This document shows positions 22,045 through 42,951 of a stretch of 64,000 bases of DNA, piece after piece (the first letter of the stretch is position 1; every line of letters begins with the position of its first letter). Position numbers and translations under genes: made by a program. Under the pieces are notes generated by a model, which was given only the letters and a program-made list of their open reading frames with translations, was not told the origin of the DNA and did no database searches. This DNA comes from Rhizomicrobium sp. (lineage in GTDB: Bacteria; Pseudomonadota; Alphaproteobacteria; Micropepsales; Micropepsaceae), in assembly GCA_037200385.1 (NCBI GenBank), contig JBBCGL010000001.1:4541418-4605417 (forward strand). The letters run 5' to 3'.

Positions 22045-23502
22045 ATGTCGGGAATCACCGCCTACGGCGCTTATATCCCGCGCCGGCGCCTGCAGCGCAA
22101 AGCCGTCGCCGCCGCCAATGCCTGGTTCGCCCCGAACCTCGTCGGCGGCGCCAAGGGCGAGCGCGCCATGGCCAATTGGGACGAGGACGCCGTGACCATG
22201 GCCTTCGAGGCCGGGCGCGATTGCCTGCCGGCCGGCGATCCCGCAAAGGACCGTGCGCATGTCGATGCGATCTATTTCGCCTCGACCACCCTGCCTTTTG
22301 CCGAGCGCCAGAATGCCGGAATCGTGGCGGCCGCGCTCAACCTGCGCGAAGAGATCGCCTCGGTCGACATCGCCGCGTCGCAGCGCGCCGGCACCACAGC
22401 GCTGATCGCGGCGCTGGATGCGGTGCAGGGCGGACGGCTGTCGTCGCCGCTGCTGGTCGCCGCCGACAAGCGCAAGACCCGCGCTGCCTCGGCGCAGGAG
22501 CTGGCCTATGGCGACGCGGCCGCCGCGTTCACCTTGGGACGCGACGGCGTCATCGCCGAATTCCTCGGCGCACATACGCTGACTCTTGATTTCGTCGACC
22601 GCTTCCGCGGTGAAGGCGAGGATTTCGACTATGGCTGGGAGGAGCGCTGGATCCGCGACGAGGGCTACAGCAAGATCGTTCCGGCCGTCGTCAAAGGGCT
22701 GCTCGAGAAGCTCGGGCGCGCGCCCGGCGATGTCGCGCATCTGATCCTGCCATGCCCCTTCGCCAAGCTCGACCAGGCCCTGGCCCGGCAATGCGGCATC
22801 GATCCCTCCAAGGTGCGCGACAATCTCGCCGCGACGGTCGGGGACACGGGCGCCGCGCATGCCTTGCTGATGCTCGCGCATGTGCTGGAGACCGCGAAGC
22901 CCGGCGAGAAAATTCTCGTCGTGCAGTTCGCCCAGGGCGCCGATGCGCTCCTCTTCGAAGTCACGCCGCGCATCGCCGATCTTCCGGCGCGTGGCGGCGT
23001 CGGCGGCAGCCTGGCGCGCCGCAAGGAAGAAACCAACTACATGAAGTTCCTCGGCTTCAACGGCCTGATCGAACTCGAGAAAGGCATGCGCGCGGAGGTC
23101 GACAAGCGCACCGCCCTCACCGTGCTCTATCGCAAGAGCGACATGCTGCTGAGCCTCTCGGGCGGCAAATGCCGGGTCTGCGGCACGGCGCAATTTCCCA
23201 AGAGCCGCATCTGCGTCAACCCGAACTGCAAGGCGGTCGACAGCCAGGACGATCACGGCTTCTCCGAACAGCAGGGCTCGGTGCTGTCCTGGTCGGCCGA
23301 CTTCCTGACTTACTCGATGGATCCGCCGAGCCATTACGGCATGATCACCTTCGCGGAAGGCGGGCGGCTGATGGCCGACATCACCGATGTGGAGCAGGGC
23401 CAGATCGACACCGGCGCCAAGGTCCGGATGGCCTTCCGGATCAAGGATTTCGACCCTAAGCGCGGGTTCGTCCGCTATTTCTGGAAGGCGGTGCCCGTCT
23501 GA
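22045..23502 (+). CDS. HMG-CoA-synthase/KAS III-like protein fused to a zinc-ribbon/OB-fold DUF35 domain; catalytic residues apparently lost
   Basis: A 485-residue fusion. Residues 1 to about 340 follow the KAS III/HMG-CoA synthase pattern (GITAYGAYIPRRRL, VDAIYFASTTLPF, YGDAAAAFTLG, DTGAAHALLMLAHVLE). Where the family has D-x4-C with the nucleophilic Cys, this protein reads DIAASQRAGTTAL, putting Gln113 at the Cys position. The later HxPxxK motif reads PCPFAK, with Pro236 in place of His. From about residue 370 a DUF35 module follows: zinc ribbon Cys376/379/390/395, then an OB-fold (GSVLSWSADF, FAEGGRLMADITDV). DUF35 proteins normally organise thiolase complexes, and a thiolase lies at 26.6 kb. 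A non-catalytic scaffold or altered chemistry is the likely reading. Confidence 0.75.
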   Translation: MSGITAYGAYIPRRRLQRKAVAAANAWFAPNLVGGAKGERAMANWDEDAVTMAFEAGRDCLPAGDPAKDRAHVDAIYFASTTLPFAERQNAGIVAAALNLREEIASVDIAASQRAGTTALIAALDAVQGGRLSSPLLVAADKRKTRAASAQELAYGDAAAAFTLGRDGVIAEFLGAHTLTLDFVDRFRGEGEDFDYGWEERWIRDEGYSKIVPAVVKGLLEKLGRAPGDVAHLILPCPFAKLDQALARQCGIDPSKVRDNLAATVGDTGAAHALLMLAHVLETAKPGEKILVVQFAQGADALLFEVTPRIADLPARGGVGGSLARRKEETNYMKFLGFNGLIELEKGMRAEVDKRTALTVLYRKSDMLLSLSGGKCRVCGTAQFPKSRICVNPNCKAVDSQDDHGFSEQQGSVLSWSADFLTYSMDPPSHYGMITFAEGGRLMADITDVEQGQIDTGAKVRMAFRIKDFDPKRGFVRYFWKAVPV

Positions 23503-23664: not shown

Positions 23665-24855
23665 ATGCCCTATGTCGAAAACCGCATCGTCCACGACGCC
23701 GACTCGCATCTGATGGAGCTGCCGGACAGCCTCGATGCCTATTTCGACCCCAAATACCGCGCCGCCTATGACGCCCTGCCCAAGCTGCAGAAGAATCCGC
23801 GCGATGCCGGCTGGGTGAAGAAAGCGCACGCCCAGCACGACGATGCCGATTTTCGCGCCGGCGCCGATACCAACGTCCTGCTGCGCAAGAATTACGAGGC
23901 GCATGGCTCCTTCCGGCGCGCGGATCGTCCGCGCACGCTGGACAATCTCGGCTTCGCGAGCCAGCTCATCTTCACCACCTGGTGTCTCGGCAATTTCGGG
24001 CTCGACGAGAGCGGTCCCGTCGATCTCGCCTATGCCGCCGCGCAGGCCCACAACCGGATGATGGTCGATTTCTGCGCCGTCGACCGCCGCTTCCTCGGCA
24101 CCGGCTATGTCCCGCTGGTCGATTTCGCTCTGGCGAAGGCTTGCGCGCGCGACGCGATCGACCTCGGCTGCAAGGCGCTGCTCGTTCCCTCCAAGCCGCC
24201 GCACGGCCATTCGCCGAGCCATGTCGCGCACGATCCGATCTGGGCGATGGCGCAGGAAGCGGGCCTGCCCATCGTCTTCCACGTCGGCGGCGAAGAGAAG
24301 CTTAAGCCCGACTATTTCGAGAACGGCCTGCCGCGAGTGAAGGATTTCCATGGCGGCGAGGAGAATTTCACCTCGGTCAGCTACATGCCGATCCCGCATT
24401 CGGTCGAGCTCACGCTGGCGGCGATGATCTTCGACGGCGTGCTGGATCGTTTCCCGAAGCTAAAATTCGGCGCCATCGAGCTGGGCGCCTCGTGGGTGCC
24501 CGGCTGGATGCGCAACATGGATTCCGCGGCGCTGGCCTTCGCCAAGAACGAGGAGCGCCTTCGGAAGCTTTCGATGAAGCCGAGCGAGTTCGTGACGCGC
24601 CAAGTCCGCGTCACGCCTTATCCACATGAGGACACCGGCTGGATCATCCGCAATTCCGGCGACGAGGTCTGCCTGTTCTCATCCGACTTCCCGCATGTCG
24701 AAGGCGGCCGCAATCCGTTGAAGCGCTTCGGCGAATCCCTGACGGGCTGCACGGACCGCCAGGTCGACCGCTTCTACTGCGAAAACTTCATCGACCTGAT
24801 GGGCGAGGGCCTCGCGGCCGACCTGCGGCGGCCGCGACCTCGGCAGGCCGCCTGA
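23665..24855 (+). CDS. Amidohydrolase-2-family metal-dependent hydrolase or decarboxylase
   Basis: A 396-residue TIM-barrel protein of the amidohydrolase-2 type (relatives include ACMSD-like decarboxylases). The N-terminal metal motif is D-A-D-S-H rather than HxH. A His appears in VFHVGGEE, a second region in FGAIELGASWVPGWMRNMD, and the C-terminal metal Asp in SSDFPHVEGG. There is no signal peptide, so it is cytoplasmic. Substrate is unknown. It stands alone between the compound palindrome and the Wzi-like gene. Members of this subfamily often occur with acyl-CoA, thiolase or DUF35 genes, which fits the genes at 22 and 26.6 kb, but the link is inferred. Confidence 0.8.
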   Translation: MPYVENRIVHDADSHLMELPDSLDAYFDPKYRAAYDALPKLQKNPRDAGWVKKAHAQHDDADFRAGADTNVLLRKNYEAHGSFRRADRPRTLDNLGFASQLIFTTWCLGNFGLDESGPVDLAYAAAQAHNRMMVDFCAVDRRFLGTGYVPLVDFALAKACARDAIDLGCKALLVPSKPPHGHSPSHVAHDPIWAMAQEAGLPIVFHVGGEEKLKPDYFENGLPRVKDFHGGEENFTSVSYMPIPHSVELTLAAMIFDGVLDRFPKLKFGAIELGASWVPGWMRNMDSAALAFAKNEERLRKLSMKPSEFVTRQVRVTPYPHEDTGWIIRNSGDEVCLFSSDFPHVEGGRNPLKRFGESLTGCTDRQVDRFYCENFIDLMGEGLAADLRRPRPRQAA

Positions 24856-24976: not shown

Positions 24977-26440
24977 ATGAACAAAGCGGGCTGGCTTGCG
25001 CAGGCGTCCCTGGCCGCGGCGCTGTGCCTGGCGGAGCCTGCTTCGGCGTCCCCTTGGGCGGAGGTCGGTGACGCACAGCTGCGCTCGGACATCGAAATCC
25101 TCGCCGCGGCCGGCGCCATCGACGGCATCACCACCCACTGGCCGCTGCCCTGGGCGAGCATCGCCGCGCGCCTGCGCAAGCCCGATGCGCTCGCGGGCCA
25201 ACCGGCCTATGTGCGGGCTGCCGCCGACCGCGTGATGAGCGTGGCCGAGTTCCAAACGCGGACCGGGGACCTGCGCGCGACTCTCACCGCCGACGCGGCC
25301 AGCACGCCCAGCGTGGTCCGGGGCTTCGATGGTCTCGGGCGCGAGACGGCACAGGGCCAGCTTTCTCTCGAATATATGACGCCGGACACGGCGGTACGCC
25401 TGTCGGCGGGTGCCGAACTGCACGACCACACCGGCCGCGTGGCCTTCGTGCCGGACGGCAGCTATGTCGCGCAAAAGATCGGCGGCGCGGTGATCTATGG
25501 CGGCTACGTCACGCATTGGTGGGGACCGGGCTGGATTTCGGCGCTGTCGCTCTCCAACAATGCGCGGCCGATGCCGCAGATCGGCATCGCGCGCGGCGAC
25601 ACCGATGCGTTCGAGACGCCATGGCTTTCCTGGATCGGACCTTGGCAGCTGGAATTCCTGGTGGGGTTGCTCGACGACAGCCGTGCCGCGAACAACACGG
25701 TCTATGATGGCCTGCGCTTCACCTTCAATCCGCTGCCGGGCCTCGAGATCGGCCTCGCGCGCACACAGGAACTGTGCGGCAGCGGCCATCCCTGCGTGCC
25801 GTTGAAATACTATTTCGAGTTCGCCAATGACAGCGGCCACGCCAACCATACCAATGACGAGGGCCTGATCGACGTCAAATACAGCACGATCCTCGGCGGC
25901 GTGCCGTTCGAAGTCTATACCCAAGCGATGAACGAGGATTCCGATCCGATCAGCCATTCCGTCACGAGCCATCTGTTCGGCGCCAGCCTGTGGCTGCCGC
26001 TGCGCGGCAATCCCCTGCGCCTGACCGCCGAATACACCGACAGCGTGCCGACCATCGACATTTTCAGCTTCGGGGACGTGCTCCACGGCGCCGCTTACAA
26101 CAATGCGGGTTATGTGGACGGCATGCGCTATCGCGGTCGCACCCTCGGCTTCAGCCTCGACAGCGATTCGACGCTCCTGACCTTGCAGGGCGCCTGGCGG
26201 GACTCCGACGGCTGGTCCTATCAGCTGACCTTCCATCACGCCGCGGTGTCCGATCCCGACAACACGCTCGGCAATGCGGTCACGGCCGCGCCCGTCCACA
26301 TCAACATGGGAGAGGCGCGGGTCGCCTTTCCGCTGCGCGGCATGCGGATCGAACTGGCCGGCCGGCTGCAGGACGACCAGCCGCGGCCGGACCGCGGCTT
26401 CCAGGCCTCGATCGAAGCGGCGCTGACCTTCACTTTGTGA
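24977..26440 (+). CDS. Wzi-like capsule assembly outer-membrane protein
   Basis: A 487-residue exported protein. The ATG follows GAGGGG at a good distance. Signal peptide: MNKAGWLAQASLAAALCLAEPASA. The mature N-terminus (WAEVGDAQLRSDIEILAAAG, then WPLPWASIAARL) matches the start of Wzi-family proteins. The remainder alternates aromatic and polar residues (VIYGGYVTHWWGPGWISALSLS, LEFLVGLLD) and ends in LTFTL, as in an outer-membrane beta-barrel. Wzi proteins anchor or organise surface polysaccharide. It is monocistronic as far as I can see. A CGCCGGCG-based stem-loop potential lies just downstream. Confidence 0.82.
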   Translation: MNKAGWLAQASLAAALCLAEPASASPWAEVGDAQLRSDIEILAAAGAIDGITTHWPLPWASIAARLRKPDALAGQPAYVRAAADRVMSVAEFQTRTGDLRATLTADAASTPSVVRGFDGLGRETAQGQLSLEYMTPDTAVRLSAGAELHDHTGRVAFVPDGSYVAQKIGGAVIYGGYVTHWWGPGWISALSLSNNARPMPQIGIARGDTDAFETPWLSWIGPWQLEFLVGLLDDSRAANNTVYDGLRFTFNPLPGLEIGLARTQELCGSGHPCVPLKYYFEFANDSGHANHTNDEGLIDVKYSTILGGVPFEVYTQAMNEDSDPISHSVTSHLFGASLWLPLRGNPLRLTAEYTDSVPTIDIFSFGDVLHGAAYNNAGYVDGMRYRGRTLGFSLDSDSTLLTLQGAWRDSDGWSYQLTFHHAAVSDPDNTLGNAVTAAPVHINMGEARVAFPLRGMRIELAGRLQDDQPRPDRGFQASIEAALTFTL

Positions 26441-40227: not shown

Positions 40228-41594
40228 ATCCCGAATTTACGCGCAATCTCTGGCTTGAAATGACGACGCGCCGCGTCGCGCTGATGGTCGTCCTGCTTGC
40301 GTTGCTTTTCTTTGCCGCGGCCTTGACGGGTGGAGAATGGGCTCCGTCGGAGGTCGCACTCGTGCTCTATTACGTCATCGTCGTGGTCTGGGGTACGCGG
40401 AGCGCGGCACTGGCCGTCGTGGGGGAGATTCGCGACCGGACCTGGGACGGCCAGCGCCTGTCGTCGCTCGGCGCGGGCATGATGATGTGGGGCAAGCTGT
40501 TCGGCGCCACGGTCTACAATTGGTTCGGCGGCGTGATCTGTCTTGTTTTCGTCCTCGCCGCTGTCTTGGAGCGCCATGGCGCGGTGACGGCGGTGATCGA
40601 GCTCTGCTATTTCATCGGCATCGGCGTCATCGCCCAGGCGGCGGCGCTTCTGGCAAGCCTGGTTGCGGTCGCGCGGCGGCACAACCATTCCCGGTTCGGG
40701 ATGTTCGTTTACCAGCTGGCAGGCCTCGCGGCGGCATTGGCTGTGTTCCGCGTGTGGGAGGTGGCGGATCCCGTCACGTCCGTCCTCGAACACGTGGCCG
40801 TCATCGATACCATTCCCTGGTGGGGCACGGCCGTTGATGCGCGCGTCTTCCTGCTGGTTTCGCTCGCCATCTTCTCGGCCTGGACTCTGGCGGGTTGCTA
40901 TCGCGAGATGCGGCGAGAGCTCAAGCTGCGCAACGGGCCGCTGGTTTGGTTGGCGTTCCTGCTGTTCATGGGCGTCTACGTCGCCGGCTTCGACGCATGG
41001 CTGTCGCCCAAAATGACCGCATGGGACGCCGTGGGGCTTCGGCTGCTGCTGGCGGGAACGGCCTTCGGCATCTTGACCTATCTTATGGTGCTTCTCGAAC
41101 CGAAGGACCGCGTGCACTACCGGTGGATGCTGGCGCAGTTGCGCGGCGGCAGGATCGGCGGCCTGCTTGCGGGTGCGCAAGCCTGGATGATGAGCTATGG
41201 CGCGACCTTCGCGGTCGCGGCGGCGCTGTCGCTCTGGTTGTTGCGCGATCCCCTGGCGGCGCGGGAAGGGCAGCCGCTGATCGTTGCCGCCATGGGCTTT
41301 GTCACGCGCGACGTTGCCTTGTTCGTCCTGCTGCAAACCGCATCGACCCGGCGACGCGGCGACGTGGCGGCGCTGACCGTCTTGTTCGCGCTATACGTGC
41401 TGGTGCCATACATCCTGGCGGCGTTGAAGGCCGACAGCGTGTTGTTTCTATTCTATCCGCAGCGGCAGGCGCCGGGCTGGATCGGCGCGGGCGCGGCCTG
41501 GGCCGAAGCCCTGGTCGTCCTGGCCGTGACGCTGACCCGGCTTGGGCTGCCCATGCGGGAGGCGGAAGCGCCGATCGTTCAATCGGCCAGATAG
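40224..41594 (+). CDS. Predicted ABC-2-type transporter permease
   Basis: A 456-residue protein with roughly ten to twelve hydrophobic spans, for instance VALMVVLLALLFFAAAL, LVWLAFLLFMGVYVAGF and DVALFVLLQTA. The early motif IRDRTWDGQRLSSLGAGMM resembles the coupling region of ABC-2 membrane subunits. It is twice the size of a minimal six-span permease, so one chain may supply both halves. Its ATG overlaps the ATPase stop (ATGA), so the two form a dedicated transporter. Substrate is unknown; export of an envelope component is a reasonable guess. It ends convergent with, and overlapping by 16 bases, the DUF6285 gene. Confidence 0.72.
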   Translation: MNPEFTRNLWLEMTTRRVALMVVLLALLFFAAALTGGEWAPSEVALVLYYVIVVVWGTRSAALAVVGEIRDRTWDGQRLSSLGAGMMMWGKLFGATVYNWFGGVICLVFVLAAVLERHGAVTAVIELCYFIGIGVIAQAAALLASLVAVARRHNHSRFGMFVYQLAGLAAALAVFRVWEVADPVTSVLEHVAVIDTIPWWGTAVDARVFLLVSLAIFSAWTLAGCYREMRRELKLRNGPLVWLAFLLFMGVYVAGFDAWLSPKMTAWDAVGLRLLLAGTAFGILTYLMVLLEPKDRVHYRWMLAQLRGGRIGGLLAGAQAWMMSYGATFAVAAALSLWLLRDPLAAREGQPLIVAAMGFVTRDVALFVLLQTASTRRRGDVAALTVLFALYVLVPYILAALKADSVLFLFYPQRQAPGWIGAGAAWAEALVVLAVTLTRLGLPMREAEAPIVQSAR

Positions 41595-41950
41595 CGTCTC
41601 AACCCGCCATAGCCGGGCTGATCGATCGCGACCTTGTCGCGGGTCGTGAGCGCAAGATGGTCGGCGAGGCCCGGCGTTTCGAGGTCGAGGCGCCCTTCCC
41701 GGATCGCGGCGCACAATTCGCGGTTCAGCGCCTCCAGCCGGCCGTCATGGCCGAGCAGTCCGACAAGGCGGGCGCGCTCCGCCTCGCCGGCGCCGCCGCC
41801 ATATTCCAATTCCCGAGCCACGATGCCGAGCGCATTGGCGGCGACGCGGGCATGGAAAGCCGTGTGGCCCTTCAGTTCGGGCATGGCACGCTGCTCCAGG
41901 AAGTCGCGCACCGCCGTGACGAGTTCGAGGATGGAAGGTTGATCCATCAT
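41579..41950 (-). CDS. DUF6285-like small protein
   Basis: A 123-residue cytoplasmic protein: PSILELVTAVRDFLEQR, FHARVAANALGIVARELE, LTTRDKVAIDQPGY. This pattern is that of a small helical family (DUF6285) routinely encoded next to acyl-CoA-dehydrogenase-associated phosphotransferases. Its start (ATGATG) lies 2 bases after the stop of just such a phosphotransferase gene, so they are one operon. No function is established. It may be an accessory factor of the phosphotransferase. Confidence 0.75.
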   Translation of the reverse strand: MMDQPSILELVTAVRDFLEQRAMPELKGHTAFHARVAANALGIVARELEYGGGAGEAERARLVGLLGHDGRLEALNRELCAAIREGRLDLETPGLADHLALTTRDKVAIDQPGYGGLRRYLAD

Positions 41951-41952
41951 GC

Positions 41953-42951
41953 TCAGAGCTTTCCCCGGATGATCAGGTTGACCAGGTCGATCTCGTTCTC
42001 CGAAGAGCGCCGGCCGATGGCGGCACGCTCCACCGAGCGGTCGCGCACGAAGCCCTGGTACATGCTCATGCACATCACGCCCCATTTGAGCGAGCCGTAG
42101 ACGATCCAGGTGCGCGCGTCTTCCTCGCTGACATGTCCGCCGCCCGCGGCTTCGTAGCCTGCAAGAAGATCGGCGAGATCGCCGAAGCCGCCCACGACTT
42201 TCTCCTGAACGCCGAAACGCCAGGAGTTGGTGCAGATCCATCCGATATCTTCCAGCGGGTCGCCGATATGCGTCAGTTCCCAGTCGAGCGCCGCTTCCAC
42301 GCCCTGGGGTGAGATCAACAGGTTTCCGTGCCGGAAATCGCCATGCACCAGCGTCTGGCGCTGGGCGCCGGCCATGCGCGGCTCCAGCCATTTGAACGCC
42401 ATCTCGAAGACGGGATGGGGATAGTCATAAAGATCGTAGGTATCGCGGTAGCGACGCAGCTGTGTCGGGCCGTCGACCGCAGGGAGTGCAGCGCGCAGCG
42501 CCGGCGTCAGCTCTACGGCATGGATGCGCGCCAGCACTTCGCCGCATTGCCGCGCGAGGTCGCCGCGCACCGCGTCGAATTCCTTGTCGCGGAGTATCTT
42601 GCGCGCGATGGTCTCGCCGGAAAGACGGTCCATCACATAGCCCTGGCCGATGGCGTCCTGCTCCCGAAGGACATAGCGCACGCGCGGCGCGCGCACGCCG
42701 GCAGCGCGCGAGGCTTCGATGGCGACGGCTTCGGTCTCCAGTGGAACGGCGGTCGATGTTTCGCTCGCGACGCGCGGCGCGCCGCCCGGCGTGCGGCGGA
42801 GGATCAGCGGAATCGTGCCGGCGTCCGTCACGGCGTCGAACGACCAGGTCTCCTGGCTCGCGCCGCCCGAGAGCCGCGTCATTGCTTGGAGGCGCGCGCC
42901 GGGAAGGGCCCCCTGGAGGGCGCTTTGCAAAGCGGGAACAAAATCTGTCAT
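41953..42951 (-). CDS. Phosphotransferase (APH/ACAD10-like kinase) family protein
   Basis: A 332-residue aminoglycoside-phosphotransferase-fold protein. N-terminal lobe: LSGGASQETWSFDAV, ILRRTPGGAPR with the ATP-site basic residues. Catalytic loop: LVHGDFRHGNLLI (HGD). Metal-binding motif: ALDWELTHIGDPLEDIGW. These are the hallmarks of the ACAD10/11-associated kinases thought to phosphorylate 4-hydroxyacyl-CoA during fatty-acid or hydroxyacid breakdown. A partner acyl-CoA dehydrogenase is not adjacent; the nearest is at 56.4 kb. It is divergent from the PagL-like gene. Confidence 0.85.
   Translation of the reverse strand: MTDFVPALQSALQGALPGARLQAMTRLSGGASQETWSFDAVTDAGTIPLILRRTPGGAPRVASETSTAVPLETEAVAIEASRAAGVRAPRVRYVLREQDAIGQGYVMDRLSGETIARKILRDKEFDAVRGDLARQCGEVLARIHAVELTPALRAALPAVDGPTQLRRYRDTYDLYDYPHPVFEMAFKWLEPRMAGAQRQTLVHGDFRHGNLLISPQGVEAALDWELTHIGDPLEDIGWICTNSWRFGVQEKVVGGFGDLADLLAGYEAAGGGHVSEEDARTWIVYGSLKWGVMCMSMYQGFVRDRSVERAAIGRRSSENEIDLVNLIIRGKL

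Follow-up and report, generated by a model that had tools for sequence, protein, structure and literature searches.

A fused HMG-CoA-synthase-like/DUF35 protein that has lost its catalytic residues is probably the non-catalytic partner of an SCP2-type thiolase

What is the role of a protein built like an HMG-CoA synthase (HMGS) in which the residues of catalysis have been replaced? The question is raised by a gene at positions 22045-23502 (+ strand) of a 64,000-nucleotide stretch of Rhizomicrobium sp. DNA, analysed as a whole and referred to here as the window. The gene is a single open reading frame, running from ATG to stop and encoding 485 aa, in a genome of 5.0 Mb assembled as a single contig. 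The N-terminal two thirds of the product match models of HMG-CoA synthase and KAS III and the C-terminal third matches DUF35 (Table 1), bearing out a preliminary description of the gene as an HMGS-like/DUF35 fusion. The OB fold of the DUF35 half scores above its cut-off (OB_ChsH2_C, PF01796, 35.4 bits against 27.1) and the zinc ribbon scores below (zf-ChsH2, PF12172, 19.1 bits against 23.2); Cys376, Cys379, Cys390 and Cys395 of the ribbon are all present, as first described.

Table 1. Features of the fused gene and its surroundings, in window coordinates.
Feature	Position	Strand	Evidence or detail
HMG-CoA-synthase-like domain, ~residues 1-325	22045..23019	+	Family models, alignment, predicted fold
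Thr81 replacing catalytic Glu	22285-22287	+	Alignment to archaeal HMGS
Gln113 replacing catalytic Cys	22381-22383	+	Alignment to archaeal HMGS
Pro236 replacing catalytic His	22750-22752	+	Alignment to archaeal HMGS
Linker, ~residues 326-365, with conserved KGMRAExDKxTALT	23020..23139	+	Alignment, pN/pS, model
DUF35 domain, ~residues 366-485 and stop: zinc ribbon, OB fold	23140..23502	+	Pfam, profile search
Amidohydrolase family protein (PF04909), between fusion and thiolase	23665..24855	+	Pfam
Wzi-like capsule/outer-membrane protein (PF14052)	24977..26440	+	Pfam
Thiolase partner, PRK06157/NF004810	26627..27829	+	717 bits, cut-off 403; Cys88, His294/Cys296 (HDCF), His344 (GHP)
DUF6285-like frame adjoining APH-family kinase, then recG	41579-42951	-	

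The active site was aligned to that of an archaeal HMGS (6ESQ chain I). D108-x4-Q113 of the fusion falls opposite D-x4-C, and PCPFAK (residues 236-241) opposite HQPNGK with Pro236 at the His, confirming the two substitutions that had been read from the sequence, Gln for the nucleophilic Cys and Pro for the His. Thr81 lies opposite the Glu (SES) of HMGS and constitutes a third catalytic loss. To see this in the wider family, 133 sequences were compared, comprising the window protein, fetched loci, six annotated plasmid proteins, split forms and a few fragments; these are distinct, yet related to one another. The Cys site holds Gln in 95, Leu in 22, Arg in 6, Met in 3, Pro in 2, Ile, His, Ala and Thr in one each and a gap in one, so that, the gap aside, Cys occurs in 0/132. 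In the reference chains the same column is Gly in PhlA and Glu in 9VBO_A. A Cys, had any family member kept one, would have been detectable, since the true HMGS in the alignment (a single reference) shows Cys in this column. The Glu site is Thr in 131 sequences, Cys in one and a gap in one; the His site is Pro in 122, His in 4, Ala in 3, other residues in 3 and a gap in one; and where HMGS and FabH carry an Asn (as does 6ESQ_I), 122 of 132 sequences have Asp or Glu. As the nucleophilic Cys is absent from all 132, the catalytic loss is a family trait and not an accident of one gene.

An alternative conserved active-site Cys was also sought in 55 aligned sequences, and no Cys column beyond the zinc ribbon exceeded 64%. 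Among the His columns, 186 and 272 rank highest in conservation, at 95% and 93%, but the window protein has Arg at 186. Judging from its place after the GDTGAA motif, His272 could line the pocket. The loss of active-site residues thus survives the search for a different conserved Cys or His, with His272 as a residual lead and no refutation. The zinc ribbon is more changeable. All four Cys are kept in 83 of the 133 sequences, a total in which a few fragments and split forms lacking the DUF35 half are counted. In 41/133 three Cys have been lost jointly, which suggests that some members of the family can do without the ribbon, and the pattern C-T-S-x is seen in 18 of the 55 aligned sequences. Losses of zinc Cys occur, among others, at loci L058, L061, L062, L070, L073, L086, L099, L111, L115 and L123. 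At a further locus (L136:6040-8574, + strand) the fused gene lies inside an open frame of 845 aa.

A thiolase is encoded downstream of the fusion, and its Cys88, HDCF and GHP motifs are what we take to be the mark of SCP2-type thiolases. Among 82 aligned thiolases Cys88 is present in 82/82, the His and Cys of HDCF in 80/80 and the His of GHP in 78/78, where each denominator is the number of sequences with a residue at that position and the gaps are genes cut at locus ends. The thiolase is found downstream and on the same strand in all 55 fused genes compared, at a distance of 200 bp or less in 47; the 3127 bp separating the two genes in the window is the largest gap among the 55. One scan of the genome collection found at least 568 stretches encoding relatives of the fusion, of which the best 80 were kept. 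These 80 loci, together with 12 fetched, gave 92 loci that were inspected for a thiolase, and one related to that of the window (>150 bits) was found in 77 of the 81 with at least 1.3 kb downstream. Two of these 77 are the split operons described below, in which the thiolase is upstream. In the four loci with none nearby, a PRK06157 thiolase was found elsewhere in the genome (4/4).

The pairing was then examined in whole genomes. A sample of 289 genomes from the class contains 59 with a match to the fused gene at E<=0.001, of which 51 are strong (E<1e-70); the eight weaker genomes, which have partial or distant matches and include two split operons (G140, G245), were omitted from the pairing test. 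A strong fused gene and an above-cut-off PRK06157 thiolase occur in the identical 51 genomes, with 0 discordant (hypergeometric log10 p ~ -57, a value that ignores kinship and the co-inheritance of linked genes). A draw of 349 genomes from the phylum gave the same result, both genes being found in the identical 7 genomes (two of these, G000 and G102, were already in the class draw). In G451 and G584 of the phylum draw the thiolase is on a different contig from the fused gene, so that pairing may outlive adjacency, contig breaks being possible in these two. The thiolase match in G542, from the same draw, holds a TAG. Among the control genomes, that of Caulobacter vibrioides has an above-cut-off NF004810 match. 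The split operons of G140 and G245 (L132, L133) consist of three genes, thiolase, HMGS-like and DUF35, with Pro at the Cys site; their more distant thiolase is upstream (178 and 183 bits) and has no NF004810 match. The PRK06157 pairing therefore holds for the fused form, and the split operons use a different thiolase. On a plasmid of the haloarchaeon Haladaptatus (L152) a thiolase gene is followed by a fused HMGS-like/zinc-ribbon protein with Thr at the Cys site. From the sequence alone the fusion had been proposed to serve the thiolase at 26.6 kb as a one-chain scaffold. This co-occurrence, the frequent adjacency and the precedent of PhlACB lend strong support to such a role as scaffold or partner.

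Two genes separate the fusion from the thiolase in the window. A relative of the first, the amidohydrolase, lies downstream of the fused gene in 7/7 of the loci L044-L050 and in 0/73 of the other scan loci (best 80 of at least 568). The Wzi-like gene is probably an unrelated insertion, and it and the adjoining polysaccharide genes are taken as local insertions. More can be learned from 12 annotated plasmid paralogues, 11 of which share 29-52% identity with the fusion and one of which, from Haladaptatus, shares 27%. These are found near acyl-CoA dehydrogenases, enoyl-CoA hydratases, MaoC hydratases, short-chain dehydrogenases (SDRs) and CoA ligases or transferases, in varying sets. The thiolase is annotated adjacent in 11 of the 12, and in the twelfth (Paraburkholderia) there is an unannotated gap of 1.27 kb. 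In Reyranella soli the fusion and the thiolase are followed by HadA-like, HadB-like and SDR genes, in that order, the HadA/B scores being below cut-off. A library of 24 proteins from the plasmid neighbourhoods was searched against the 42 loci longer than 18 kb, with matches for SDR in 11, ECH in 6, ACAD in 5, CaiB in 2, MMCM in 1 and AMP-binding in 1. A beta-oxidation operon around the window gene was rejected on account of these few matches. When the plasmid library was compared with the seven closest relatives among the matches listed (L044-L050), the sole catabolic neighbours were an acyl-CoA dehydrogenase match in L049 and another in L050. With so little of a beta-oxidation operon near the closest relatives of the window gene, a catabolic direction rests mostly on the paralogues.

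A different set of neighbours was found among the 51 scan loci (from the best 80 of at least 568) with at least 9 kb downstream. A PRK07791-like SDR is present in 13 of these and an APH-family kinase in 29; in 25/51 the kinase is accompanied by a DUF6285-like frame, both of them no more than 10 kb from the fused gene. The levulinate route contains a kinase, LvaA, acting on 4-hydroxyacyl-CoA (PMC11342911, in the part available, where the name LvaB was not found). By this analogy it is possible that the APH/DUF6285-like pair is linked to 4-hydroxyacyl-CoA catabolism. No LvaC-type acyl-CoA dehydrogenase was seen next to the pair, and we regard such a route only as a lead.

Taken together, the loss of the catalytic parts, the retention of a docking domain and the co-occurrence with the thiolase point to the fusion being, with good probability, the subunit without catalytic function in an SCP2-type thiolase encoded by two genes. 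By analogy, the pair is best read as a two-gene HMGS/DUF35/thiolase complex on the plan of PhlACB in which the thiolase alone is catalytic. In the window pair A and B of that plan would form a single chain and PRK06157 would take the place of C, and joining A and B in this way would fix their ratio at 1:1. Docking on the thiolase dimer would fall to the DUF35 half; the degenerate HMGS half would complete the assembly and line an acyl-CoA cavity beside the thiolase active site, having no covalent chemistry of its own. Cys88 of the thiolase would make or, more likely, cleave beta-ketoacyl-CoAs, cleavage being favoured over synthesis by the catabolic neighbours of the thiolase paralogues. A broader and rather doubtful extension is that a thiolase widespread in bacteria functions only together with a pseudo-synthase dedicated to it, where the dead HMGS half, welded to DUF35, keeps its pocket as an acyl-CoA chamber that receives or holds the acyl chain or the CoA arm and so sets the accepted chain length or bulk. 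In part of the family such an enzyme might act beside the APH kinase and DUF6285 in an unusual acyl-CoA route.

Uncorrected pN/pS against four close relatives is 0.21-0.36 for the HMGS part, where synonymous differences have already reached ~0.5-0.6 per site, 0.08-0.14 for the linker and 0.18-0.31 for DUF35; for the thiolase it is 0.10-0.13 against three close relatives. The HMGS part is under purifying selection, yet it is the least constrained part of the fusion. An AlphaFold2 monomer model (55 sequences) has a pLDDT of 87.9 and a pTM of 0.91, with low pLDDT at linker residues 341-360. Blocks with pLDDT below 75 (181-210, 341-360 and 421-430) contain 20 invariant positions out of 60, as against 52 of 425 elsewhere (Fisher p 1e-4). 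That the low-pLDDT segments of the monomer are the most conserved is as expected for subunit contacts; however, the link could alternatively reflect a mobile substrate loop. The PhlB N-terminal tail packs on PhlA and PhlC (PMC6392133, in the part available), and from this comparison the linker of the fusion appears to occupy the place of that tail.

The alternative that fares best is that the HMGS-like half has acquired a new activity from Thr81, Asp/Glu267 and His272, making the pair a true two-enzyme complex. These residues are well conserved (Thr81 in 131/132, His272 and Asp/Glu267 each in 122/132) and by alignment to HMGS would be at or near the pocket. However, the half that would carry this activity is less constrained than the thiolase, and PhlA is likewise without the Cys and Glu, having Gly115 and Cys83 instead, in a complex that uses the residues of PhlC alone (available part of PMC6392133). 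We therefore consider a new activity improbable.

A second alternative concerns the reaction of the pair. The model of the fusion has the HMGS/KAS III fold (Foldseek to 6ESQ_I, E 2.1e-27, TMt 0.88), and its top ten structural matches are PhlA (9SKH, 5MG5, 5M3K), archaeal HMGS (6ESQ, 6ET9) and chains A/B of MucABC (9VBT, 9VBO), all of them HMGS-like chains of complexes that also contain a thiolase-like chain. A single-sequence search with the fusion placed 6ESQ_I first (4.6e-30) and PhlA slightly behind (2.9e-29), an order that was reversed in the family profile search, where PhlA (1.1e-45, 2.1e-44) came ahead of archaeal HMGS (5.4e-39). With PhlA proteins as the nearest structural neighbours, and with 3 of the 12 plasmid paralogues located beside ring-hydroxylating dioxygenases, the pair might be a C-acyltransferase of phenols like PhlACB and not a thiolase. 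However, the thiolase is far closer to 7YVY (8.5e-64), 6ESQ_A (1.2e-53) and SCP2-thiolases (5.6e-44) than to the PhlC chains (6.6e-21, 2.3e-20), and there is no annotated polyketide synthase gene in the 12 plasmid neighbourhoods. Acylation of phenols by the pair thus seems quite unlikely.

Ketosynthases with a Cys-to-Gln change are known decarboxylases, which retain the active-site His and Asn. The preliminary description had accordingly offered decarboxylating chemistry as an option. In such a reading the HMGS-like half would be a KSQ-like decarboxylase that feeds the thiolase, for example from a malonyl-CoA-type ester. Gln is indeed the commonest residue at the Cys site (95/132), and Foldseek also matched the model to 9KA5, a structure of FabH C112Q. 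However, 37 of the 132 sequences have Leu, Arg, Met, Pro, Ile, His, Ala or Thr instead, the His site is Pro in 122 and His in just 4, and the Asn position is likewise acidic in 122. Since Gln is not fixed, a Cys-to-Gln change as a functional one fails for the family, and the variable Cys site combined with Pro at the His site argues against decarboxylation. The proposal is unsupported and was rejected as very unlikely. The least probable reading is that of an HMG-CoA synthase whose active site has been rearranged and which, like its archaeal counterpart, produces HMG-CoA together with the thiolase. This reading has in its favour building blocks identical to those of the archaeal acetoacetyl-CoA thiolase/HMGS complex and the first place of 6ESQ_I in the single-sequence search, but was rejected because three of three catalytic residues are lost, the family profile prefers PhlA and all HMGS equivalog scores are below the curated cut-offs (NF003274 200.7/244, TIGR00748 145.1/353.35, TIGR01835 37.6/360.35).

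If the fusion and the thiolase are one enzyme, these thiolases are annotated, and would be assayed, minus a needed subunit. In plasmid records the fusion is named 'OB-fold domain-containing protein', 'KAS III C-terminal domain' or hypothetical protein, and its partner plain acetyl-CoA acetyltransferase. The pair also offers a clean two-gene system for asking what an inert HMGS-like subunit does, a question that PhlA raises equally. The DUF35 family was already known in 2010 to be fused to thiolase-superfamily domains, and phlABC is cited as combining an active and an inactive member of that superfamily (both from the available part of PMC2954200). In the literature searched, by titles and the starts of abstracts and with subscription papers mostly outside reach, no paper on the fused protein was recognised and no mention of PRK06157 was found; nor was a functional study of the two-gene fused version found in the searchable literature. 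What is new is the HMGS/DUF35/thiolase plan in two genes with A and B fused, the plan itself being known from PhlACB and the archaeal complex.

PhlACB (Pseudomonas protegens, Chromobacterium sphagni) is the best fold and profile match of the fusion. Like the window pair, it has an HMGS-like subunit without the catalytic Cys and Glu, a DUF35 component and a thiolase-superfamily subunit with the sole catalytic Cys, and a C88S variant of PhlC is inactive (PMC12955522, in the part available). Four B subunits act as bridges, PhlB mediating the binding of the PhlA and PhlC dimers, and cavities run through A, B and C (available part of PMC6392133). In contrast to the window, where A and B are in one chain, the PhlACB subunits are encoded separately, by three genes; the window thiolase (PRK06157) is no more than a distant relative of PhlC, and PhlACB acylates phenols. 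The archaeal acetoacetyl-CoA thiolase/DUF35/HMG-CoA synthase complex (6ESQ, Methanothermococcus) has the same three parts as the window pair. Its HMGS chain shares 26% identity with the fusion over 354 columns in the fold search, and its DUF35 chain was also matched. However, the archaeal chains are separate, the complex makes HMG-CoA, and its HMGS retains Glu82 and Cys114 (PMC6392133, same part), both of which are missing from the fusion. The MucABC acyltransferase (Streptococcus macacae, 9VBO/9VBT) resembles the fusion in having an HMGS-like chain of matching fold without the Cys (Glu instead), and another of its chains matches the window thiolase; it differs in its separate chains, and identity to the fusion is ~20%. 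Finally, in the hydratase-aldolases Shy-Sal and ChsH1-ChsH2-Ltp2 a fused DUF35 docks a thiolase-fold enzyme (PMC11321319, PMC12329534, in the parts available), as is proposed here for the fusion, although in these enzymes it is a MaoC hydratase that carries the DUF35 and an aldolase that has the thiolase fold.
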